Shown one piece after another: positions 40,250 to 50,594 of a stretch of 64,000 nt of DNA. The first letter of the stretch is position 1. Every line of letters starts with the position of its first letter. The DNA comes from Spongiibacter tropicus DSM 19543 (GTDB lineage Bacteria; Pseudomonadota; Gammaproteobacteria; Pseudomonadales; Spongiibacteraceae). The stretch lies in assembly GCF_000420325.1 (NCBI RefSeq), contig NZ_ATUS01000001.1:1988463-2052462 (forward strand), read 5' to 3'. The position numbers and the translations under genes are program-made. The notes beneath the pieces were generated by a model. It ran no database searches. It was given only the letters and a program-made list of their open reading frames with translations, and had not been told where the DNA came from.

Positions 40250-40668
40250 TCCGGGATTATCACAGCGATGATTGCGACGAGGTGCTGAGAATCTGGCTGG
40301 CGGCGTCCATTGAGGCACATAACTTTATCGATGCCGCGTATTGGGAGGCCCGTGTCGAGGACATGCGGACGGTATACCTGCCCGCCGCGGAGAGCCGTGT
40401 GCTTGTGCACGATGGTCGCATCCAGGGCTTTTACTCCCTCTGCGAAAATGTGCTGGCGGCCCTGTTTGTCGATCCGGTGTTTCAGGGGCAGGGCGTGGGC
40501 TCGGCACTGCTCGACGACGCCTTGCAACACCGGGCGCCACTGAGTCTGGCGGTGTATAAGTCGAATACCAAGAGTGCCCGCTTTTACCGCTCCCGCGGGT
40601 TTTTAGTTGTGCAGGAGCAGGGTGATCCGCAGACCGGACAGGATGAATACCTGATGCGGAGCAGCTAG
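40246..40668 (+). CDS. GNAT family N-acetyltransferase
   Basis: A 140-residue acetyltransferase. The acetyl-CoA-binding loop is DPVFQGQGVGSALLDDAL (motif A, Q/RxxGxG/A), followed by LAVYKSNTKSARFYRSRGF, the motif B segment. The start overlaps the SRPBCC stop by ATGA. It resembles the YjaB/ElaA-like small acetyltransferases; substrate unknown. It converges with the DUF2970 gene, stop codons overlapping. Confidence 0.9.
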   Translation: MIRDYHSDDCDEVLRIWLAASIEAHNFIDAAYWEARVEDMRTVYLPAAESRVLVHDGRIQGFYSLCENVLAALFVDPVFQGQGVGSALLDDALQHRAPLSLAVYKSNTKSARFYRSRGFLVVQEQGDPQTGQDEYLMRSS

Positions 40669-40868
40669 CCCGCCTGGCTGAGAATGAGCCGTACCAAGCC
40701 GTTCACGGTGAGCAGAAACAGCGCGATGAAACACACCGCACCCAGCACATAGTGATGAAACTTGCCGGCTTCGCCGGTTTCCTCCATGCCTTTGCGGCTG
40801 CGCACGCCAAAGGCCATGGAGGCGATATTGCGCAGAATCTTCAGGGGTTTGACGCGTTCTTGGCTCAT
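40665..40868 (-). CDS. DUF2970 small membrane protein
   Basis: A 67-residue protein from ATG 40868 (GAGGAG before it). A conserved N-terminal block PLKILRNIASMAFGVRSRKGMEE is followed by one membrane helix (YVLGAVCFIALFLLTVNGLVRLIL), the DUF2970 layout. It overlaps the SulP stop by ATGA, so it is translationally coupled to the transporter and may be an accessory subunit. The open frame to 40928 is not used. Confidence 0.85.
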   Translation of the reverse strand: MSQERVKPLKILRNIASMAFGVRSRKGMEETGEAGKFHHYVLGAVCFIALFLLTVNGLVRLILSQAG

Positions 40869-42601
40869 GATTGCTCCTCGTTTGCACCAGCCAGAATGCC
40901 GGCAATGGCCTGGTGGTGAGACAGCCATACACGGCCTTTCAGGTGCTTGAGGAAATCGGTTTTCTCCAGCACATCCGTCACCGGGCCTTTGAGTTCAGAA
41001 AAGTGCAGGGCAATGCCCTGTTCGCCCAGTCGCTCGTTGATCGATTCCAGTGCTTCCAGCGCGCTGAGGTCAATTTCATTGATTGCCGTGCCCATAATCA
41101 CCACATGTCTGGCTTTGGGGTATTCCTCCAGCAGGGCGTAGATGCGGTCTTCAATAAATCCGGCGTTGGCAAAGTACAGGCTCTCGTCGATGCGCAGTGA
41201 CAGGATCTCCTCGTGGGTTACCACCTGATGGCGGTTGATATTGCGGAAATGCTCGGTGCCCGGCACTTCGCCGATCACCGCCATATGCGGCTTGGACGTT
41301 TTGTACAGATGCAGTGCCAGCGAGGCGAATACGCCACAGGCAACACCGGCCTCTACGCCAACCATCAGGGTAACCACCAGGGTGCTGGCGACGGCGATGA
41401 AATCGGAGTAACCGTAGTTCCAGGTCTTTTTGAGAATCGACAGATCGACCAGCGACAACACCGCCACAATAATGGTGGCGGCCAGCGTGGCTTTGGGCAG
41501 ATAGGCCAGATAGGGCGTGAAGAAAATCGCCGCAAGCCCGATGCCCACGGCGGTAAACATACCTGCCGCCGGGGTTTCCGCACCCGCGTCGAAGTTCACC
41601 ACCGAGCGCGCAAAGCCGCCGGTGACCGGGTAGCCGCCAGAGACTGAGGAGGCAATATTCGATGCGCCGAGGCCGATCAGCTCCTGATTGGGCGAAATTT
41701 TCTGCCGCTTCTTGGCGGCCAGCGTATGGCCTACAGAGACCGACTCGACAAAGCCGATGATGGAAATAAAGATCGCGGAAATCAGCAGCTCCTGCCAGGC
41801 CGGGTGGTGCAGCGGCGGCAGCGACAGCGTTGGCAGACCGCTTGGCACGCTGCCAACCAGCGCCACACCGCGATCGCCGAGATTAAACACCACGGCGGCG
41901 ACACTGGTCAGCACCACGCCAACCACCGGACCGGCTTTGCTGACCATGGCAGCAGAGAACGGTGACATGCCCAGCTTTTCCAGCACGGGCTGCAAGCCTT
42001 TGCGCACCCAGAACAGAAAGATGACCACCGGCACGCCGACCGCCAGCGTCGCGAAATTGGTATCGCCAAGGTGCTCCGTCAGGCTCATGACGATTTCATA
42101 AAGGTTGTCGCCGTGGGCCTGTACGCCCAGCAGATGGCGAACCTGGCTGATGGCGATGATAATGCCCGAAGCGGTAATAAAGCCCGCGATGACCGGGTGC
42201 GACAGGAAGTTCGCCAGAAAGCCCATGCGCAACAGACCCATACCGAGGAGGAACAGGCCCGAGAATGCGGCCAGCAAGGTGGCGGCTTCGAGGTAGCCCA
42301 TGCTGCCGACCTCGGCTACCCGCCCCACCGCAGATGCGGTCATCAGCGAGGCGACCGCCACCGGGCCGACCGACAGGCTGTTGCTGCTGCCCAATAAGCC
42401 ATAGGCCACTAGCGGCAGCATCGATGCATACAGTCCCACCTCCGGCGGCAGCCCGGCCAACAGAGCATAGGCCAGCGACTGGGGGATCAGCATGATCGTC
42501 ACAATTACTGCGGCCAGCAGGTCTGAGACCAATTGGCTGCGGTTGTACTGACGACCCCAGCTGAGAATAGGGAAGTATTGGCTGAGCGAGGCTTTCAACA
42601 C
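40865..42601 (-). CDS. SulP family anion permease with STAS domain
   Basis: A 578-residue transporter. The membrane domain (about residues 15-410) starts with VTIMLIPQSLAYALLAGLPPEVGLYAS, the SulP signature, and a C-terminal STAS domain (about 440-560, RHVVIMGTAINEIDLSALEALESI) follows. SulP proteins move sulfate, bicarbonate or related oxyanions. Its place 79 bases behind the sulfide oxidoreductase fusion, in the same direction, suggests it handles sulfite, thiosulfate or sulfate made by sulfide oxidation. This is inferred from context. Confidence 0.92.
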   Translation of the reverse strand: MLKASLSQYFPILSWGRQYNRSQLVSDLLAAVIVTIMLIPQSLAYALLAGLPPEVGLYASMLPLVAYGLLGSSNSLSVGPVAVASLMTASAVGRVAEVGSMGYLEAATLLAAFSGLFLLGMGLLRMGFLANFLSHPVIAGFITASGIIIAISQVRHLLGVQAHGDNLYEIVMSLTEHLGDTNFATLAVGVPVVIFLFWVRKGLQPVLEKLGMSPFSAAMVSKAGPVVGVVLTSVAAVVFNLGDRGVALVGSVPSGLPTLSLPPLHHPAWQELLISAIFISIIGFVESVSVGHTLAAKKRQKISPNQELIGLGASNIASSVSGGYPVTGGFARSVVNFDAGAETPAAGMFTAVGIGLAAIFFTPYLAYLPKATLAATIIVAVLSLVDLSILKKTWNYGYSDFIAVASTLVVTLMVGVEAGVACGVFASLALHLYKTSKPHMAVIGEVPGTEHFRNINRHQVVTHEEILSLRIDESLYFANAGFIEDRIYALLEEYPKARHVVIMGTAINEIDLSALEALESINERLGEQGIALHFSELKGPVTDVLEKTDFLKHLKGRVWLSHHQAIAGILAGANEEQS

Positions 42602-42680
42602 GCGGTCCTCTCCGTAAGCATGGCATTACCCTGATCCCCGAAGGGAAAACAGCGCCACGAGAGTGGCGCAACAGGGTGGG

Positions 42681-44369
42681 TTATTTCTTGGCCGGGGCGT
42701 CTTCGCCGATGACCGGTTTCACCAGCCACTCGTGCCCCTTGAGCATGCCCTGCCAGTAAATCGGTGGCAGCAGCTTCTCTTTCAGCAGCCAGGCGAGACG
42801 GGTGGGTTGAGTGCCGTCGAGCAGGAATTTTGGGAAGCTGGGCAGCAGCTTGCCGCCGTAGCCGAACTCCGCCAGTACGATCTTGCCGCGCTCCACGGTC
42901 AGCGGGCAGGAGCCGTAGCCGTTGTAGTGGGAGATCTGGTCGCCGCGACCGGCAATGTCAGCAGCAATATTGTTGGCCACGATCGGCGCCTGCATACGGG
43001 CTGCCGCTGCGGTTTTGGCGTTGGGCGCATTCATCACGTCGCCCAGCGACCAGATGTTGGCGTAGGTTTTATGGCGCAGTGTGCTCTGGTCGACATCCAC
43101 CCAGCCGGCCTCGTCTACCAGTGGGCTGTTGCGAACAAAGTCGGGCGCGACTTGCGGCGGTACGACGTGAATCATGTCGAACTCGCGGCTGACTTCGATA
43201 TCGTTACCAGCATCATCCTTGGTGGCAAACCATGCGGTCTTGTTGGGGCCGTCGATGCGGGTCAGCGTGTGGCCAAAGTTGAGCTTGGCCTGGTATTTGT
43301 CGATGTACTTCATCAGCGCGGGCACGTAATCGGCCACGCCGAACAGCACCGCACCGGCGTTGTAGAATTCCACATCGATGTTGTTCAGACGGCCTTCCCG
43401 ATACCAGTGGTCGCAGGACAGGTACAGCGCCTTCTGCGGTGCGCCGGCGCATTTGATGGGCATGGGGGGCTGGGTAAACAGCGCCTTGCCGCCTTTGAGG
43501 TTTTCCACCAGCTCCCAGGTATAGGGCGCCAGATCGTAGCGGTAGTTGGAGGTCACCCCGTTCTTGCCCAGCGTTTCGCTCAGGCCTTCGATGGCGCCCC
43601 AGTTGAGCTTGATCCCGGCGGCCACTACCAGCCGCTTGTAGTGCAGCAGTCGACAGCCTTCCAGAATGACCGTGTTGTGGTCGGGATCAAATGCCGCCAC
43701 TGCCGCCTTGATCCATTCCACGCCTTTGGGGATCAGCGACGCCATGCTGCGCGCAGTTTGCTCCGGTGTGAATACGCCGCCGCCGACCAGCGTCCAGCCG
43801 GGCTGATAATAGTGAGTGTCGGCGGGGTCGATAATGGCGATGGAAATACCGTGGCAGCGTTTTTTCAGGCTGGCGGCGGTAGAGATGCCAGCCGCGCCGC
43901 CACCGACAATCAGCACGTCGTAGGTCGCCATGCCCTCGGCTTCTGTACCGCCGTTTTTGGCGGCAATCCGTGATACCACACCACTCATGTCGTAACCGGC
44001 TTTGGCGGCAGCATCGACGATGTCCGTCAGTGATTTTTGCTCGCCCCGGCTCAGTGCCCACAGGGTGGTGCAGCGCATACCGCTGCGGCAGTAGGCGTGC
44101 ACGGGTTCGGTCTGGGCCGCCAGCAACTCGCCAAACGCTGCGGCGTCTTCATCGGTAACGCGACCGCTGACCACCGGCAGATAGTGGCATTGAATACCCA
44201 GTTCGGCAGCCTTGGCTTCCAGCTCTTTGAAGCCGGGCTGATCGCCGCCCTCACCATCGGGCCGGTTACAGATCAGGGTTTTTACGCCGCGTTCGGCAAG
44301 CGCGGTGAGATCGTCGACCGTCAATTGGCCGGAGACGGTCAGATTGTTATCGAGTTGTTTGTAATCCAT
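42681..44369 (-). CDS. Fusion of DUF442 (BLH-type) phosphatase-like domain and sulfide:quinone oxidoreductase
   Basis: A 562-residue protein. Residues 1-110 are a DUF442/TIGR01244 domain (LTVSGQLTVDDLTALAERG; HAYCRSGMRCTT with the phosphatase-loop cysteine at 94). From residue 149 a flavoprotein of the SQR type follows: the FAD motif VGGGAAG is at 155-161, and the two redox cysteines known from mitochondrial-type SQR are both present as KCAGAPQK (Cys307) and GYGSCPL (Cys488). SQR oxidises sulfide at the membrane, passes electrons to ubiquinone and makes persulfide. It lies 18 bases behind the dioxygenase-like gene. The fusion directly links sulfide oxidation to the BLH domain. Confidence 0.92.
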   Translation of the reverse strand: MDYKQLDNNLTVSGQLTVDDLTALAERGVKTLICNRPDGEGGDQPGFKELEAKAAELGIQCHYLPVVSGRVTDEDAAAFGELLAAQTEPVHAYCRSGMRCTTLWALSRGEQKSLTDIVDAAAKAGYDMSGVVSRIAAKNGGTEAEGMATYDVLIVGGGAAGISTAASLKKRCHGISIAIIDPADTHYYQPGWTLVGGGVFTPEQTARSMASLIPKGVEWIKAAVAAFDPDHNTVILEGCRLLHYKRLVVAAGIKLNWGAIEGLSETLGKNGVTSNYRYDLAPYTWELVENLKGGKALFTQPPMPIKCAGAPQKALYLSCDHWYREGRLNNIDVEFYNAGAVLFGVADYVPALMKYIDKYQAKLNFGHTLTRIDGPNKTAWFATKDDAGNDIEVSREFDMIHVVPPQVAPDFVRNSPLVDEAGWVDVDQSTLRHKTYANIWSLGDVMNAPNAKTAAAARMQAPIVANNIAADIAGRGDQISHYNGYGSCPLTVERGKIVLAEFGYGGKLLPSFPKFLLDGTQPTRLAWLLKEKLLPPIYWQGMLKGHEWLVKPVIGEDAPAKK

Positions 44370-44387
44370 GGTCAGTCCTCGCGGCCC

Positions 44388-45278
44388 TTACAGTACGTTG
44401 AGTGGCAGTTTCAGATAGACAGTGCCGTTGTCCTCCGCGCCGGGCAGGTGGCCCGCCCGCATATTGACCTGCAGCGAGGGAAGGATCAGGCGCGGCATGC
44501 CCAGTGTGGCATCGCGGGCTTCGCGCATGGCAACAAACTGATCTTCGCTGGTGCCCACATGCACGTGGATGTTGGCTTCTTTCTCGGCGGCAACCGTGGT
44601 TTCGTACTCCACTTCGCGGCCATTGGGCATATAGTCGTGGCACATGAACAGGCGCGTTTCATCCGGCAGCGACAGCACCCGCTGAATCGATTTGTACAGG
44701 ATGCGGGCATCGCCGCCGGGGAAATCGGCGCGTGCGGTGCCGCCATCTGGCATGAACAGGGTATCGCCGACAAAGGCCGCGTCGCCCATAATGTGCGTCA
44801 TGCAGGCCGGTGTGTGGCCCGGTGTGTGGATGGCGTGGCAGACCATGTTACCCACGGTGTACTCATCGCCATCTTCAAACAGCTGGTCGAACTGTGAGCC
44901 GTCGCGGGCGAACTCTGTGCCTGCGTTGAAAATCTTGCCAAAGGTGTCCTGGACCACGGTGATCTGCGAGCCGATACCGACGCGCCCGCCGAGTTTTTCC
45001 TGAATATAGGGCGCTGCCGACAGGTGATCGGCGTGCACATGGGTTTCGATGATCCACTCGAGTTTCAGGTCGTGGCTGCGGATGTAGTCGATGATTTTAT
45101 CGGCGCCGTCGAGTGACAGGCGGCCGGCGGCGTAGTCGATTTCCATCACGGAGTCGACGACGGCGCAGGACTTGGAGGTCGGGTCTTTGACCACGTAAGA
45201 AAAGGTGTTGGTGGGCTCGTCAAAAAACGGGACGACTTCGGGTTTGTGGTCGAAATCCACGCGGATATTGTCAGTCAT
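44388..45278 (-). CDS. Persulfide dioxygenase-like metallo-beta-lactamase-fold protein (BLH/ETHE1 type)
   Basis: A 296-residue metallo-hydrolase fold protein. The metal motif reads ETHVHADHLSAAPYI, with further ligands in HTPGHTPACM, VGDTLFMPDGG and MCHDYMP. In ETHE1 and its bacterial relatives a single iron site of this kind converts glutathione persulfide to sulfite. The C-terminal extension (about 45 residues, NMRAGHLPGAED) matches the BLH subtype. It is the first gene of the sulfide operon; the fused SQR downstream would supply its persulfide. Confidence 0.88.
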   Translation of the reverse strand: MTDNIRVDFDHKPEVVPFFDEPTNTFSYVVKDPTSKSCAVVDSVMEIDYAAGRLSLDGADKIIDYIRSHDLKLEWIIETHVHADHLSAAPYIQEKLGGRVGIGSQITVVQDTFGKIFNAGTEFARDGSQFDQLFEDGDEYTVGNMVCHAIHTPGHTPACMTHIMGDAAFVGDTLFMPDGGTARADFPGGDARILYKSIQRVLSLPDETRLFMCHDYMPNGREVEYETTVAAEKEANIHVHVGTSEDQFVAMREARDATLGMPRLILPSLQVNMRAGHLPGAEDNGTVYLKLPLNVL

Positions 45279-45346
45279 GATGAAGTCCTCTTGCTGTCAG
45301 GGGCGGCCCGCTTTCAGGAGGTGCTCGCCATTGTCCATATTTAATT

Positions 45347-45362
45347 GGAATAAGCTTATTCC
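45347..45362. promoter_or_regulatory. Perfect 16-bp palindrome upstream of the persulfide dioxygenase gene
   Basis: GGAATAAGCTTATTCC is a gapless palindrome 69 bases before the dioxygenase ATG on the reverse strand. It is of the size bound by ArsR- or similar winged-helix dimers, the class that includes the sulfide sensor BigR. No such regulator gene is in the window. It could also fold in the leader RNA. Confidence 0.5.
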
Positions 45363-45376
45363 TTATGTGCTTATAA

Positions 45377-45391
45377 ACAGGAATTATGCCA
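45377..45391 (-). promoter_or_regulatory. Weak candidate sigma-54 promoter for the sulfide operon
   Basis: On the reverse strand TGGCATAATTCCTGT has the -24 TGGCA half and the correct 10-base spacing to a -12 element, but GT stands where GC is expected. A FisR-type activator needs a sigma-54 promoter, and this is the best match I found in the 360-base gap 45279-45638. Low confidence. Confidence 0.25.
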
Positions 45392-45498
45392 ACCTCGCTG
45401 ACGCGGCGTTTGATAGTTCCAACATATTGTTAACATTAAGTTTTTCCCCGAAATAAGCGGATTCTTGGCGACGCTCCCAAAACGGGCGCCGCGAAAAA

Positions 45499-45533
45499 TG
45501 TCAAATTTGTCACTATTCGCGTCACTTTTGACA
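45499..45533. promoter_or_regulatory. Nested repeats between the sulfide operon and the divergent TonB receptor
   Basis: TGTCAAA (45499-45505) and TTTGACA (45527-45533) form an inverted repeat enclosing two direct GTCAC copies (45509-45513 and 45521-45525). It lies about 110 bases beyond the candidate -24 element of the sulfide operon, the usual distance for a sigma-54 activator site, and about 105 bases before the receptor gene, so it could serve either direction. Confidence 0.4.
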
Positions 45534-45638
45534 CAGCTGCGCTGGGCGGCGGCGGTGGCTGCGACAATTTGCCACTTTGTCTAAATATTGATCACTGTAA
45601 TAGGGTTCGCCGTTTTTGCGGATTAATGGAAATTGGGA

Positions 45639-47906
45639 ATGACTTATCGCCTGTCGCGCGCCGCTCTGGTGCTGTTGCTGTTTCCCGCGCTGTCGGCGCT
45701 GGCGGACACCGCTGTTGAAGAGATGCGGGTGTGGGGGGAGCGTCGCAGCAGTGACGATTCGTCGTTCACCAGTCCCAACAGCATTCTTCGCCCGGAAGAT
45801 ATGCTGAGTATCAACGCGACGACCACCGAAGACCTAGTGAAATACGAGCCCAGCCTGGTGATTCGCCGTCGCTTCATCGGCGATGCCAACGGCACGCTGG
45901 GGATTCGCGGGAGCAATATGTTCCAGACCTCGCGGTCGATGGTCTTTGCCGACGGGGTGCCGCTGCATTATTTCCTCCAGTCCCGGTGGAACGGCGCGCC
46001 GCGCTGGACATTGGTATCGGCCAGCGAAATAGCGCAGGTCGAAGTGCTCTACGGCCCGTTCTCCGCTGAGTATAGTGGCAATGCCATGGGCGGCGTGGTG
46101 CTGATCGAAACCGCGATTTCGGAGCGCGAAGAATTCCACGTGGATGTGGGTTACTTCTCTCAACGCTTCGAGGCCTATGGTGTTGACGAGCAACTCGATG
46201 GCTACAAAACCTTTGTTTCCTACGGCAACCGGGTTGGCGATGCCAGTTACTACTTCTCCTACAACCGTCTGGAAAGTGATGCGCAGCCACAGACCTACTT
46301 CTATGGTGGCAGCGATACCGGCGCGCCGCCGCAGAGTGTCAGCGGGGCGATTCGGGCTCGCGATGAGTTGAGCAATTCGCGCCTGTACTTTGGCGATAGC
46401 GGCGTGGTGGCGACAACCACTGACAATATCAAAATGAAGCTGGGCTACGACTGGGAGCAGTGGTCGGTGCTGGCCAATATCGCCTACGAAGGTCGCGAGG
46501 GGTTGAGCACCCGCCCCAACAGCTATTTGCGCGACAGCAACGGCAATGCGGTTTGGGAGGGCAACGTCGAGCAAGGCGGTGAGGTATTCTCGGTGCCTGC
46601 TTCCCGGCTGGGGGTGAGCGAGCAGGACCGCGACAGCCTGTCGGTGGGGCTGCGCTTGCGCGGCGAACTGAGTGAGCGCAGTGCGCTGGAGGCCAACCTC
46701 AATCGCTTTGACATCTTGCGTGATGAAGCCCGCAGTTCGGCGGCAAACCCCAATGCGCCGTCGTTTGACGGCAGCGGGCAAGTAACGGATTTCGGTGATA
46801 CCGGCTGGACAACTGCAGAGCTGAAATGGTCGGTGGACGGCGTGTTTGGCGAGGACGTGGATCTGGTCGCCGGTCTGCGTCACGAGCACTACGAACTCAA
46901 TACCACGGTATACCGCAGCAGTGATTACCGGGCGGGCCGCAAAACGCAGGCGGTGGATCGCAGCGGCGGTGAAACGACCTTGAACGCGGCGTTCCTGCAA
47001 CTGAGCTGGACCATCAGTGAGGCCTGGGATGCAACGTTGGGCGGTCGCTACGAGGACTGGAAAAGTCATGGCGGCTACTACGCTGACGATCAGGCGGCGA
47101 CGCCGGGTCTCGACGTGGTGAAGGTGCCGTCTCGCGATGACAGCAGTATCTCACCCAAACTTTCGCTTGGCTTTCAGCCCGCTGAGCACTGGCAGCTGCG
47201 CTACGCACTGGCCCGGGCCTACCGCTTCCCGATAGTCGAAGAGCTGTTCAGTCAGTACCAGGCCTACAACAGCGTCAATGCCGCGAATCCCGATCTGAAA
47301 CCGGAGCGCGGCCTGCACCACAATCTGATGATTGAGCGGCGGCTGGGCAGCGGCTATGTGCGCGTCAATCTGTTTAAGGAAACCGTTCGGGATGTCATTG
47401 AGTCGCAGACCACCATGCTGGCCGGAGGCACCTCGCTGCGTACCTTTGTTCCGGTCGATCAGGTGGAGACCGAGGGCGTGGAGTTGATCTTCAACGCCTA
47501 CGATGTGTTTACGCCGGGTCTGAACCTGCGCGCGAATCTGGCGTGGACGGATGCCGAAATTACCCAGAACCGCGTTGACCGCAGCATTGTCGGTAATCAG
47601 TTTACTCGCATGCCGAAGTGGCGGGGGAATCTGCTGGCGAATTACCACGTGAATGCGCGTTGGGATGTGGGGGCGAATCTGCAATATGCCAGCGACAGCT
47701 ACGGTCGCCTCGACAACCGCGACCGCGAAGACAATGTCTACGGTGCGCAAGACGGCTATCTGCGCTTGGGCGTAAAAACGCGTTACCAGTTTACGCCGCA
47801 ACTGAGTGGCAGCATCGGCATCGATAATCTGCGCAATGACATCGACTATGTTGCCCATCCCTGGCCGGGCCGCACCGGCTATGTGAGCCTGTCCTATGAC
47901 CTCTGA
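45639..47906 (+). CDS. TonB-dependent outer-membrane receptor (paired with PepSY protein)
   Basis: A 755-residue receptor starting at ATG 45639. It has a short signal peptide (ending ALADTA), TonB box region EEMRVWGERR, plug (LVKYEPSLVIRRRFI, GIRGSNMFQTSR, VLYGPFSAEYSGNAMGGVVLIET) and a barrel ending G-Y-V-S-L-S-Y-D-L. The plug differs from the two carbon-type receptors in this window and is closer to metal or siderophore receptors. The PepSY gene overlaps its end by 11 bases, a pairing typical of ferric-siderophore or copper uptake. No Fur box was recognised upstream. Ligand unknown. Confidence 0.92.
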   Translation: MTYRLSRAALVLLLFPALSALADTAVEEMRVWGERRSSDDSSFTSPNSILRPEDMLSINATTTEDLVKYEPSLVIRRRFIGDANGTLGIRGSNMFQTSRSMVFADGVPLHYFLQSRWNGAPRWTLVSASEIAQVEVLYGPFSAEYSGNAMGGVVLIETAISEREEFHVDVGYFSQRFEAYGVDEQLDGYKTFVSYGNRVGDASYYFSYNRLESDAQPQTYFYGGSDTGAPPQSVSGAIRARDELSNSRLYFGDSGVVATTTDNIKMKLGYDWEQWSVLANIAYEGREGLSTRPNSYLRDSNGNAVWEGNVEQGGEVFSVPASRLGVSEQDRDSLSVGLRLRGELSERSALEANLNRFDILRDEARSSAANPNAPSFDGSGQVTDFGDTGWTTAELKWSVDGVFGEDVDLVAGLRHEHYELNTTVYRSSDYRAGRKTQAVDRSGGETTLNAAFLQLSWTISEAWDATLGGRYEDWKSHGGYYADDQAATPGLDVVKVPSRDDSSISPKLSLGFQPAEHWQLRYALARAYRFPIVEELFSQYQAYNSVNAANPDLKPERGLHHNLMIERRLGSGYVRVNLFKETVRDVIESQTTMLAGGTSLRTFVPVDQVETEGVELIFNAYDVFTPGLNLRANLAWTDAEITQNRVDRSIVGNQFTRMPKWRGNLLANYHVNARWDVGANLQYASDSYGRLDNRDREDNVYGAQDGYLRLGVKTRYQFTPQLSGSIGIDNLRNDIDYVAHPWPGRTGYVSLSYDL

Positions 47907-49200
47907 ACCATCAGGGCGGCGCAGCGCTTTATACCGCCGTTTGTGGCGTTGGCATTTTTACGCGGGCCTGTTCTGTATCCCGTTTGTGCTGACGTTGGCG
48001 GCGTCCGGGGCCATCTATCTGTTCAAGCCGCAGGTCGAACAGTGGCTGGATGCGCCGTATCGAGAATTGCCCGTCAGCGGGCCGCTGGCCTCGCCTCAGC
48101 AGCAAATCGATGCCGCACTGGCGTCGTTGCCGGGCAGCCGGCTCATCAACTACGAATTGCCGCTTGAACCCAATGATGCGGTGAAAATCGCGGTGGGGCT
48201 GCATGGCATCAAGCATCTGGTCTATGTGCATCCGGAAACGCTGAGGATTCTCAAGCAGATTGAATACGAGGCGCAGTTCATGCGTCAGGTCAGGGCATTT
48301 CACGGCGAGCTGCTGGCAGGGAATGTGGGCTCGGTGCTGGTGGAGCTGGCCGCGTGCTGGGCCATCGTACTGATTCTCACCGGGCTGTATCTATGGTGGC
48401 CTCGCCACAGCGTTGGGCTTGCCGGTGTTCTTTATCCACGCCTGCGACAGGGACGCCGTGTGCTGTGGCGCGACCTCCACGCGGTGACTGGCATCTGGAT
48501 ATCGGCATTTGCGCTGTTCCTGCTGCTCACGGGCCTGCCGTGGGCGCTGGTATGGGGCAGTGCCTTTAAAGAAGTCCGCCAGTGGGGTCAGCCGACACTG
48601 CAGCAGGACTGGTCGGTCGGTCACAGCGAGCACCACGCTCACAGTGCGGCACCGAAAACGATGCCGGTACTCAGCACGGAGGTGATGGCGCGGGCTGTCG
48701 ATCTGAATTTTGCGCCCCCCGTCGAACTCAGCCCCGACAAACAACAAGCCGGTGTCTGGAAGCTGGCATCCCAGAGCCAGAATCGACCCCTGCGTGCCGA
48801 GGCCTGGATTGATGGCCGCAGCGGTAGGCTGTTGAGCAGCCGCCATTTCGATGAGCGGCCGCTGGTCGATCGGGCGATTGGTATTGGGGTTGCCGCCCAT
48901 GAGGGGCAGTTGTTTGGCTGGTTTAATCAGCTGCTCGGTGTACTCACGGCGGTAGGGCTGATGATCATAGCGACGAGCGGTTTCGTGCTGTGGCGACGGC
49001 GCAAACCTGCGCAGCGCCTGGGAGCGCCGTCATTCCCGGCGGAGCACCGGCTGGCTGTCGGCGTAACGGTCATGATCCTCGGGCTGGCCCTTGTGCTGCC
49101 GGTGGTGGGAATATCCCTTGTGTGCATGGCGCTCATGGAGTTTGCCGTGTTGCGTCATATTCCGGCTGCACGTCGCTGGCTGGGCTTGCCGACAAGGTGA
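47896..49200 (+). CDS. PepSY-associated transmembrane protein
   Basis: A 434-residue inner-membrane protein. The first helix RRLWRWHFYAGLFCIPFVLTLAASGAIYLF is the PepSY-TM signature, and three more membrane segments follow (about 145-165, 195-220, 340-365) with periplasmic PepSY regions between. Conserved histidines such as WRDLHAVTG and AHEGQLFGWFNQ fit heme or metal ligands of ferric-reductase-like members. A His-rich stretch GHSEHHAHSA (about 237-246) is unusual and could bind copper or iron. It is translationally coupled to the TonB receptor and may reduce its imported metal complex. Confidence 0.88.
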   Translation: MTSEPSGRRSALYRRLWRWHFYAGLFCIPFVLTLAASGAIYLFKPQVEQWLDAPYRELPVSGPLASPQQQIDAALASLPGSRLINYELPLEPNDAVKIAVGLHGIKHLVYVHPETLRILKQIEYEAQFMRQVRAFHGELLAGNVGSVLVELAACWAIVLILTGLYLWWPRHSVGLAGVLYPRLRQGRRVLWRDLHAVTGIWISAFALFLLLTGLPWALVWGSAFKEVRQWGQPTLQQDWSVGHSEHHAHSAAPKTMPVLSTEVMARAVDLNFAPPVELSPDKQQAGVWKLASQSQNRPLRAEAWIDGRSGRLLSSRHFDERPLVDRAIGIGVAAHEGQLFGWFNQLLGVLTAVGLMIIATSGFVLWRRRKPAQRLGAPSFPAEHRLAVGVTVMILGLALVLPVVGISLVCMALMEFAVLRHIPAARRWLGLPTR

Positions 49201-49236
49201 TTGAGCTGCGCCGGAGTCGCGGCGCTGCCAGTCTTA

Positions 49237-49271
49237 TGCCAATATTGACAACCTGACTGTCAATATTGGCA
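49237..49271. promoter_or_regulatory. Perfect 14-bp inverted repeat just before the FisR-like gene
   Basis: The arms TGCCAATATTGACA (49237-49250) and TGTCAATATTGGCA (49258-49271) are exact complements separated by 7 bases, and end 6 bases before the ATG. There is no T tract, so it is unlikely to be a terminator. It may be an operator, possibly for autoregulation, or a hairpin that masks the start, which has no clear Shine-Dalgarno sequence. Confidence 0.7.
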
Positions 49272-49277
49272 AACACC

Positions 49278-50594
49278 ATGCAACACATCGCGACCGACGC
49301 CGACCTCGATTTCAGCTCTCTGCTCGACAGCCTGGATTATCCCGCCATACTGCTGTCGCCGGAGTACCGGATACTCGCCAGCAACAAGCGCTATGTCGAC
49401 AGCTTCGGTGACGTTCCCCAGGGCGACTACTGCTACCGCGTGTCACACGGCTACGACCGTCCCTGCGATCAGGCCGGTGAGAGTTGCCCTCTGCAGGCCT
49501 GCACCCGCAGTGGTCAACGCGAGCGCGTACTGCATATCCACAACACCCCACGTGGCCGCGAGCATATCGACGTGGAAATGCTGCCGCTGACAGATCGTCA
49601 CGGCAAACTGCGCTACTTCATTGAGGTCCTCAAGCCGGTCAAAAGCGCCAGCGCCGAAATCAGCAGCAGCCAGATGGTCGGGCGAAGTGCCGCCTTTAAC
49701 ACCATGCTGGAGCTGATCAACCTGGTCGCGCCCCACGAAACCTCGGTACTGTTGCTGGGCGAGTCCGGTGCCGGTAAGGAGCTGGCGGCGCAGGCCATTC
49801 ACGGCACCAGCCGTCGCGCCGACAGCGCCATGGTGACGGTGGAATGCGCCGGGCTGACCGAGACGCTGTTTGAAAGCGAGTTATTCGGTCACGTCAAAGG
49901 CGCTTTTACCGGCGCGGTCAGCAACAAGCCGGGCCTGCTGGAATCGGCGCGAGGCGGCACCCTGTTTCTGGACGAAATCGGCGATGTGCCACTGGGCATG
50001 CAGGTAAAGCTGCTGCGCCTGCTGGAAACCGGCAGCTACCGGGCCGTGGGCAGCACCCAGCCCAAGCTTGCCGACTTCCGGCTGGTCTCTGCCACCAACA
50101 AAGACCTGCCGGGGATGATTGCGCGGGGCGAATTCCGTGAAGATCTCTACTACCGGATCAATGCCTTCCCCATCCATCTTCCGCCGCTTAGAGAGCGTCG
50201 GGAAGACATTGCCCTGCTGTCGCGCTCCATCCTCAAAAAACTCAGCCCCAATGGCGGCTACCGGCTGACCGACTCCGCCGTTAAACGACTCCAGCAGCGC
50301 GAATTTCCCGGCAACATCCGCGAGCTGCGTAATCTGCTCGAACGCGCCACCATCTTTGCGCATTCCAGCATCATCGATGTGCCGGTACTGGAACGCTGCT
50401 TCAGCCAGGAAGTCGACACGGCGACCCATCGCTCGATGCCGTCTGAGGGACGTGACGGCCCCTGGCTGGATCTGAAAAATCAGGAACGCTACTACCTGAA
50501 AAAACTGCTGGAACACTGCAAGGGTGACAAGGACCGTGCCGCCGAAATTGCCGGGATCAGTTTGCGATCGCTGTATCGGCGGCTGGAAGGGTAG
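49278..50594 (+). CDS. fisR: FisR-like sigma-54-dependent regulator of sulfide/sulfane sulfur oxidation
   Basis: A 438-residue enhancer-binding protein. The N-terminal sensor domain has [19 protein letters not shown], giving Cys52, Cys63 and Cys70; FisR of Cupriavidus pinatubonensis senses sulfane sulfur through cysteines with this same 11- and 7-residue spacing (53, 64, 71). The AAA+ domain holds Walker A GESGAGKE (about 161), GAFTGA (about 208) for sigma-54 contact and Walker [11 protein letters not shown]. The C-terminal helix-turn-helix is [23 protein letters not shown] 49278 is chosen over the TTG at 49266, which lies within the inverted repeat. Its expected target is the dioxygenase-SQR operon about 4 kb away. 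Confidence 0.88.

Follow-up and report, generated by a model that had tools for sequence, protein, structure and literature searches.

The window analysed here is a stretch of 64,000 nucleotides from Spongiibacter tropicus DSM 19543 (G000:C1:1988463-2052462 by our handles for genome and contig, within a genome of 3.95 Mb). Our subject is a locus within it that holds the genes for a persulfide dioxygenase (PDO), a DUF442-SQR fusion, a SulP anion transporter, a DUF2970 protein and a FisR-type sigma-54 activator, and in addition those for a TonB-dependent receptor and a PepSY_TM membrane protein. The locus is a real and known kind of bacterial sulfide-detoxifying gene cluster. In our judgement it very probably constitutes a FisR-controlled operon for the detoxification of sulfide/persulfide, in which the TonB/PepSY pair is a passenger within an interval that formerly held cydAB. 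On the minus strand pdo is followed by DUF442-SQR, sulP and the DUF2970 gene, and on the plus strand the TonB gene is followed by the PepSY gene and fisR. This gene inventory, which the original prediction had drawn up from the letters alone, was borne out by the open reading frames (ORFs) and by Pfam; no RNA family reached its gathering score in the window. The features are listed below.

49278..50594, plus strand: FisR-type sigma-54 activator (PAS-like sensor with C52/C63/C70/C75, AAA+ domain with GAFTGA, Fis helix-turn-helix)
49237..49271, no strand assigned: FisR enhancer-like double dyad upstream of fisR, without mismatch, no sigma-54-like site at the usual spacing
47896..49200, plus strand: PepSY_TM membrane protein, 219 bits, gene sharing 11 bp with the end of the TonB gene
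45633..47906, plus strand: TonB-dependent receptor, likely start at ATG 45639, Plug and TonB barrel (163 bits)
45499..45533, no strand assigned: FisR enhancer-like double dyad ahead of pdo, deviating at 2 of its 20 specified positions, 0/300 shuffles as good
45376..45392, minus strand: TTGGCATAATTCCTGTT, a 13/16 candidate for the sigma-54 promoter of pdo, with the enhancer-like site at a distance of 107 bp
45347..45362, no strand assigned: palindrome without mismatch, GGAATA-N4-TATTCC, 30 bp downstream from where the sigma-54-like site starts
44388..45278, minus strand: PDO, ETHE1-like metallo-beta-lactamase fold with HVHADH, Lactamase_B 73 bits
42681..44369, minus strand: DUF442(BLH)-SQR fusion, rhodanese-like domain with C94/R99 and human-SQOR-like SQR with C307/C488
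40865..42601, minus strand: SulP anion transporter with STAS, Sulfate_transp 347 bits and STAS, TIGR00815 above cut-off
40665..40868, minus strand: DUF2970 small membrane protein, 67 amino acids from ATG 40868, start overlapping the SulP stop

Genes of the sulfide-detoxifying cluster

The characteristic HxHxDH metal motif is present in the PDO (HVHADH at residue 80). The solved structures that match this protein best are 9g8t, 4ysk and 4efz (E below 1e-100), which we take to be persulfide dioxygenases, and human ETHE1 (4chl) is matched at 5e-19. In the fusion protein Pfam recognises BLH_phosphatase (78 bits) and Pyr_redox_2. Residues 149-546 align to human SQOR (E 5e-91), with Cys307 and Cys488 in the motifs KCAGAPQK and SCPL, and the DUF442 loop, CRSGMR, holds Cys94 and Arg99; given these motifs and the alignment, the three cysteines singled out in the original prediction were rightly placed. 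According to PMC8533005, the DUF442 domain within the SQR of Cupriavidus pinatubonensis is likewise a rhodanese-like domain, and its loop likewise ends in an arginine, the critical Arg99, although the loop reads CRTGTR there. PMC5823870 describes a further relative, Blh of the bigR operon (Xylella, Agrobacterium), where DUF442 is combined with an ETHE1-like PDO domain; family NF040641 matches both these domains. The locus studied here differs from that operon in that DUF442 is fused to SQR and not to PDO, the regulator is a FisR activator and not the BigR repressor, and the transporter is SulP and not TauE.

The relatives were drawn from a family sample of 21 genomes, 18 of which belong to the genus of the window (window genome included), and neighbourhoods of around 20 kb each, one of 13 kb, were compared. 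SulP, of which the best solved match is plant SULTR4;1 (7lhv), is encoded in the pdo operon in all 18 genus loci compared besides the window. Between pdo and sulP these loci hold SQR (15), DUF442 alone (1) or nothing (2); by genome, a full-length SQR occurs in 15 of the 18, with none in G004 and G007 and the DUF442 part only in G020. Outside the genus, sulP stands beside pdo without SQR in locus L156, which together with L065 (G004), L066 (G007) and L045 (G020) makes up the set of pdo/sulP loci in which SQR is absent or reduced to DUF442. Since the loci without SQR still have sulP next to pdo, a role for SulP as oxyanion transporter for the product of PDO, rather than for sulfide, would fit, and the fact that PDO and SulP outlast SQR hints at endogenous persulfide as a substrate. 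A second pdo-sqr-sulP copy, lacking fisR and cydAB, was observed in G008 (L039). The DUF2970 gene was recognised by PF11174 on an ORF of 87 amino acids (36 bits, cut-off 27) and probably starts at 40868. Among the loci compared besides the window, homologues behind sulP were found only in L032 and L042 (50-53%); in Bordetella a DUF2970 gene is located in a cytochrome oxidase operon, as stated in PMC11257404.

The regulator combines PAS_4, Sigma54_activat (PF00158, 212 bits) and HTH_8 (PF02954), with an intact 'GAFTGA' sequence. Cys52, Cys63 and Cys70 had been named correctly, counted from the ATG at 49278, and a fourth cysteine lies at position 75; all four are kept in 17/17 genus sequences. 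The spacings of 11 and 7 presumably equal those of C53/C64/C71 in Cupriavidus. The ATG at 49278 is the likelier start, compared with the ORF start at TTG 49266, because the latter falls inside the enhancer-like site. The FisR sensor domain is present in 17 of the 18 genus genomes, G020 being the one without. In an order-level scan of 293 genomes (E 1e-15 for the FisR sensor domain, E 1e-60 for SQR) it was recovered from 57 genomes and SQR from 108. An SQR match was found anywhere in 44 of these 57, and within 15 kb in 36, which leaves 21 without a nearby SQR. Thus, fisR stays with the pathway, in support of the FisR-type sulfide-oxidation operon that had been proposed.

Enhancer-like sites and candidate promoters

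Upstream of fisR, a double dyad of the form TGYCA-N4-TGRCA-N7/8-TGYCA-N4-TGRCA was found in 17/17 genus loci, with 0-2 mismatches. A second dyad precedes pdo in the window (2 mismatches), in L030, L031, L032, L039 and L043, and in L042 (3 mismatches). For 23 promoter regions that were cut by hand, none of 300 mononucleotide shuffles matched the dyad as well as the real sequence. The site is absent from the 24th region, the cydAB promoter of G020 (L045), a genome without FisR, where the best match has 7 mismatches and is equalled by 90/300 shuffles. Within the window, the pattern with a spacer of 7 matches three times at no more than 3 mismatches (one of these being a shifted copy that overlaps another), where 0.02 matches would be expected.

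In 22 of the 24 promoter regions, the distance from the dyad to the start of the best sigma-54-like site is 95-108 bp. The exceptions are L045 and the pdo promoter of L042, in which the top site lies elsewhere, though a 12/16 site occurs at 108 bp. For the candidate promoter of pdo in the window, the spacing and the conservation in G011 and G012 provide the support. Outside the genus we compared 20 FisR loci, hand-picked from the order-level FisR matches. The dyad is present at no more than 3 mismatches in 16 of them, and in 11 a dyad with at most 2 mismatches is combined with a sigma-54-like site of at least 13/16 at 86-120 bp, within a scan that covered around 86-125 bp from the dyad. In L161 (G246), a dyad and a good sigma-54-like site lie behind fisR (L161:10631-10790) on a contig without a pdo or sqr match, and this could possibly be another FisR target. 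The candidate enhancer motif of FisR and its spacing have hereby become concrete and testable. No description of this motif, or of cydAB inside a FisR operon, was noticed in the open-access literature searched, a weak negative, as the original Cupriavidus FisR paper is not among the texts covered.

The interval between fisR and pdo

In all 16 genus-mates with fisR, cydA and cydB, encoding a bd-type oxidase, lie between the divergent fisR and pdo. Their products are 79-100% (CydA) and 73-100% (CydB) identical to those of L030; Pfam confirmation covers a single CydA/CydB pair and an additional CydA, the others being assigned by this identity. The genome without fisR, G020, shows the order cydAB-pdo-DUF442-sulP. 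In G016, genes for a CsoR-type protein, an alginate-export-type porin and a ModA-like protein are also found between cydB and pdo. Outside the genus, cydAB of the genus kind occupies the interval in 7 of the 20 FisR loci, and the arrangement is therefore old. Of the other outside loci, L169 has cydAB beyond sulP, L172-L174 have a more divergent cydAB close to fisR, in eight cydAB is absent and fisR adjoins pdo, and L161 has none of these partners.

The window genome is the only one in the genus that lacks this cydA. In the trees of FisR, SulP, SQR (each 100% bootstrap) and PDO (86%), the window is sister to G011 plus G012, whereas the deeper branches of the four trees partly disagree. Since both sister genomes keep cydAB, the exchange seen in the window is derived. 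The sole CydA match in the window genome is 36% identical and is encoded on contig C5 (L067, G000:C5:126000-145900), together with CydB and CydD/CydC-like ABC genes. It is best matched by E. coli-type models, below their cut-offs, and this second kind of CydA occurs in no other of the 18 genus genomes. It may compensate for the lost bd oxidase. The original prediction had spoken of a sulfide locus interrupted by TonB and PepSY; the genes are as described, but the wording is better changed to TonB/PepSY in the place where relatives have cydAB.

Two-gene modules of a siderophore-type TonB receptor and a PepSY_TM protein are of a familiar kind, and the pair in the window resembles them in its organisation. 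It differs in that its TonB receptor stays below the cut-off of every curated receptor family. Searches for relatives among solved structures returned none for TonB (best E 0.001) or PepSY (best E 0.1). A fold search listed PqqU, PhuR, PfeA, FecA and OprC as alike, which points to no one substrate. In the family sample, a TonB receptor of this kind (more than 60% identity over near full length, at most 51 candidates being scored per genome) is encoded only in G015 and G016, and the same holds for PepSY (58-60%). The pair lies around 330 kb from sqr in G016 and on another contig in G015. At the order level, PepSY was found at E 1e-60 or better in 7 of the 293 genomes; besides the window genome, G015 and G096 among these have fisR and sqr, both on a contig other than that of PepSY.

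When named genomes were scanned with the single TonB sequence, no relatives appeared, and an alignment-based scan gave 82, of which the best 80 were kept (47 in loci of at least 20 kb, 33 in shorter ones with cut flanks). PepSY adjoins TonB in 29 of these 80 loci. Quick clustering yielded no other clearly conserved neighbour, and the FisR sensor domain was seen in none of the 80, with the same restriction on their length. Single matches consisted of an SQR-like one in L143 (48% over 412 amino acids), one of 27% to PDO, one of 34% to FisR within its general activator region and one of 24 residues to CydB; weak SulP matches (29-30% over 146 amino acids) occurred in three loci. The SQR-like gene, in a Piscirickettsiaceae metagenome-assembled genome, lies at L143:5604-6830, around 3 kb from a distant (41%) TonB relative. 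Beside fisR or sqr, the TonB/PepSY pair was found in 0/16 genus-mates with fisR and in 0/20 FisR loci outside the genus. Accordingly, a single block of TonB, PepSY and fisR is not supported: in nearly all relatives the pair is found apart from the sulfide genes, an outcome that the original prediction had named as refuting it, whereas fisR mostly stays with them.

The idea, voiced earlier, that TonB and PepSY supply a metal or are co-regulated found no support in their distribution or in the promoter spacing. In its fullest form it would give the pair a function within the sulfide response, providing iron for PDO or recovering metal stripped as sulfide, under control of the enhancer-like site shared with pdo. 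Such a role could be read from the divergent position of TonB and pdo around a single site and from the iron bound by ETHE1-type enzymes (PMC5823870). It is also consistent with a ferric siderophore receptor of Acinetobacter baumannii, which in PMC7315123 shows a larger sulfide change in the fisR deletion than in the wild type, and with the TonB receptors of other families that G014, G004 and G020 have close to the locus. Yet no sigma-54-like site toward TonB was found at the usual spacing, the best score being 10/16, and the pair is missing from all the genus-mates and outside loci just mentioned. We consider this role very improbable, and TonB/PepSY as a member of the sulfide pathway was rejected. 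The pair looks rather like a lineage-specific newcomer, a stand-alone module placed here in this lineage, and probably lies outside the sulfide pathway because it stands where close relatives keep the bd-type oxidase.

How the pair came to its place is another matter. It may have moved by rearrangement within the genus and functionally replaced nothing, the loss of cydAB being a separate event tolerated through the second CydAB. We hold this to be an evenly balanced possibility: in G015 and G016 the pair has a different location, the window genome alone in the genus has the second kind of CydA and the base composition is native, but a single genome cannot date the events. It is moreover compatible with the FisR-controlled operon and its passenger, not opposed to them.

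Proposed mechanism and the junction at fisR

The gene content, the gene order in relatives, the conservation of motifs and of their spacing and the gene trees are established, and we infer the following course for the biochemistry, FisR binding, sigma-54 promoter use, direction of transport and order of the exchange. SQR would oxidise sulfide, a thiol would receive the sulfane sulfur from the fused DUF442 domain, the resulting persulfide would be turned into sulfite by PDO, and SulP, perhaps with DUF2970, would move the oxyanion. FisR is predicted to sense sulfane sulfur via its cysteines, to bind the dyad 107 bp upstream of the sigma-54 promoter of pdo and to activate pdo-sqr-sulP-DUF2970. 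In the ancestor, fisR would have faced cydAB, which headed the operon with a FisR/sigma-54 promoter of its own. In the lineage of the window, cydAB and that promoter would have been lost, and TonB/PepSY, most likely a stand-alone pair for metal-chelate uptake with its own promoter, would have come into the same interval. The enhancer left at fisR probably serves autoregulation.

The FisR-controlled pdo-sqr operons of C. pinatubonensis and A. baumannii are alike in having a divergent sigma-54 activator, sqr, pdo and a candidate anion exporter. In A. baumannii, FisR activates pdo-sqr-tauE and cydAB is induced by sulfide (PMC7315123; summarised in PMC8148161). The window differs in that it has SulP instead of TauE, and that TonB/PepSY stand where the operons of this order often start with cydAB. 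In this order, the FisR system thus often carries the bd oxidase pair, which brings respiration and sulfide oxidation together in one candidate regulon. What is odd about the locus is this lineage-specific exchange, in which an uptake pair unrelated to the bd oxidase stands in its place, possibly with a side effect on the expression of fisR. The exchange cautions against equating adjacency with membership of a pathway.

Several observations weigh against this interpretation. FisR of A. baumannii functions without the sensor cysteines, according to PMC7315123. The score of the sigma-54-like site of pdo (13/16) is reached by 20/300 shuffles, and 4 of the 20 outside FisR loci (L165, L171, L172 and L174) lack a dyad at no more than 3 mismatches. 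G004 and G007 have no SQR, so that exogenous sulfide is maybe not the main substrate everywhere. As regards the newcomer status of TonB/PepSY, a poorly ranked TonB copy could be missed among the at most 51 candidates scored per genome, the G+C content of the fisR-pdo interval equals that of the surroundings, which does not support a recent foreign entry, and no convincing flanking repeats marking an insertion were found. Finally, TonB receptors of other families occur near the locus in G014 (beside fisR, L032:792-3371), in G004 (beyond sulP, L065:14720-16981) and in G020 (ahead of cydAB, L045:2561-4717); this may be chance, since such receptors are numerous in these genomes.

The stop of PepSY and the ATG of fisR are 77 bp apart, of which 35 bp are taken up by the enhancer-like site. 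Between the dyad and the PepSY stop there are 36 bp, and the 15-18 bp or so nearest the dyad weakly resemble G011 and G012; shuffles as good were obtained in 10/500 (G011), 49/500 (G012) and 58/500 (G014) cases. The cydA promoter is gone from this junction, and no sigma-54-like site occurs at the usual spacing away from fisR into PepSY. A perfect dyad has been kept although no sigma-54 promoter is left for it to serve, which suggests a role at fisR itself, namely autoregulation. E. coli PspF is comparable in having a divergent activator gene with an enhancer close to its own start, and it represses its own gene via the shared enhancer, as described in PMC3709507; for FisR the autoregulation is deduced from the site.

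Given this junction, transcripts of fisR may come from TonB-PepSY or start at a promoter within PepSY. The first option could amount to a regulatory capture, with fisR as the last gene of a TonB-PepSY-fisR unit, in which the amount of sensor follows the uptake promoter and metal status becomes linked to sulfide detoxification. The three genes are co-directional across the short junction, the plus strand shows no terminator-like site between PepSY and fisR, and the DNA that resembles the relatives ends around 15-18 bp from the dyad, which means that any original promoter of fisR at a greater distance would be gone. The resemblance at the junction is weak, however, as the shuffles above indicate. 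Moreover, a Fur-like box before TonB does not exceed chance (best 12/19, with 95/300 shuffles as good, in a simple scan with a consensus), and the promoter of fisR may sit in PepSY or overlap the enhancer-like site. Such a capture is conceivable, and we rate it as rather unlikely. Still more doubtful is the elaborated version, in which TonB/PepSY displaced cydAB together with the DNA beyond the fisR enhancer, put FisR under a metal-uptake promoter and so coupled metal scarcity to readiness for the detoxification of sulfide; in that version the perfect dyad at fisR, deprived of a promoter to serve, would amount to a natural experiment that isolates the control by FisR of its own gene.

The palindrome GGAATA-N4-TATTCC is shared by part of the genus only. 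Before pdo it is perfect in L030 and L031, at the same offset as in the window, and in L039, and weaker in L032, L042 and L043 (10/12); before cydA it occurs in L030-L033 (10-11/12). It lies 27-40 bp downstream of the start of the sigma-54 site in those cases in which that site is clear, near the expected transcription start. None was seen near the dyad or the sigma-54-like sites outside the genus. Judging from its position, the palindrome could possibly be a second operator, for a repressor. A CsoR-family repressor was considered as its binder and rejected, as a CsoR gene near pdo is found in G014, G016 and G019, but the palindrome is present also in G011 and G012, which have no CsoR match, and in the window genome, where the match is 28%. 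The CsoR-family genes between cydB and pdo are located at L032:7592-7873 and L043:11975-12304 (both PF02583) and at G016:C1:385059-385340.

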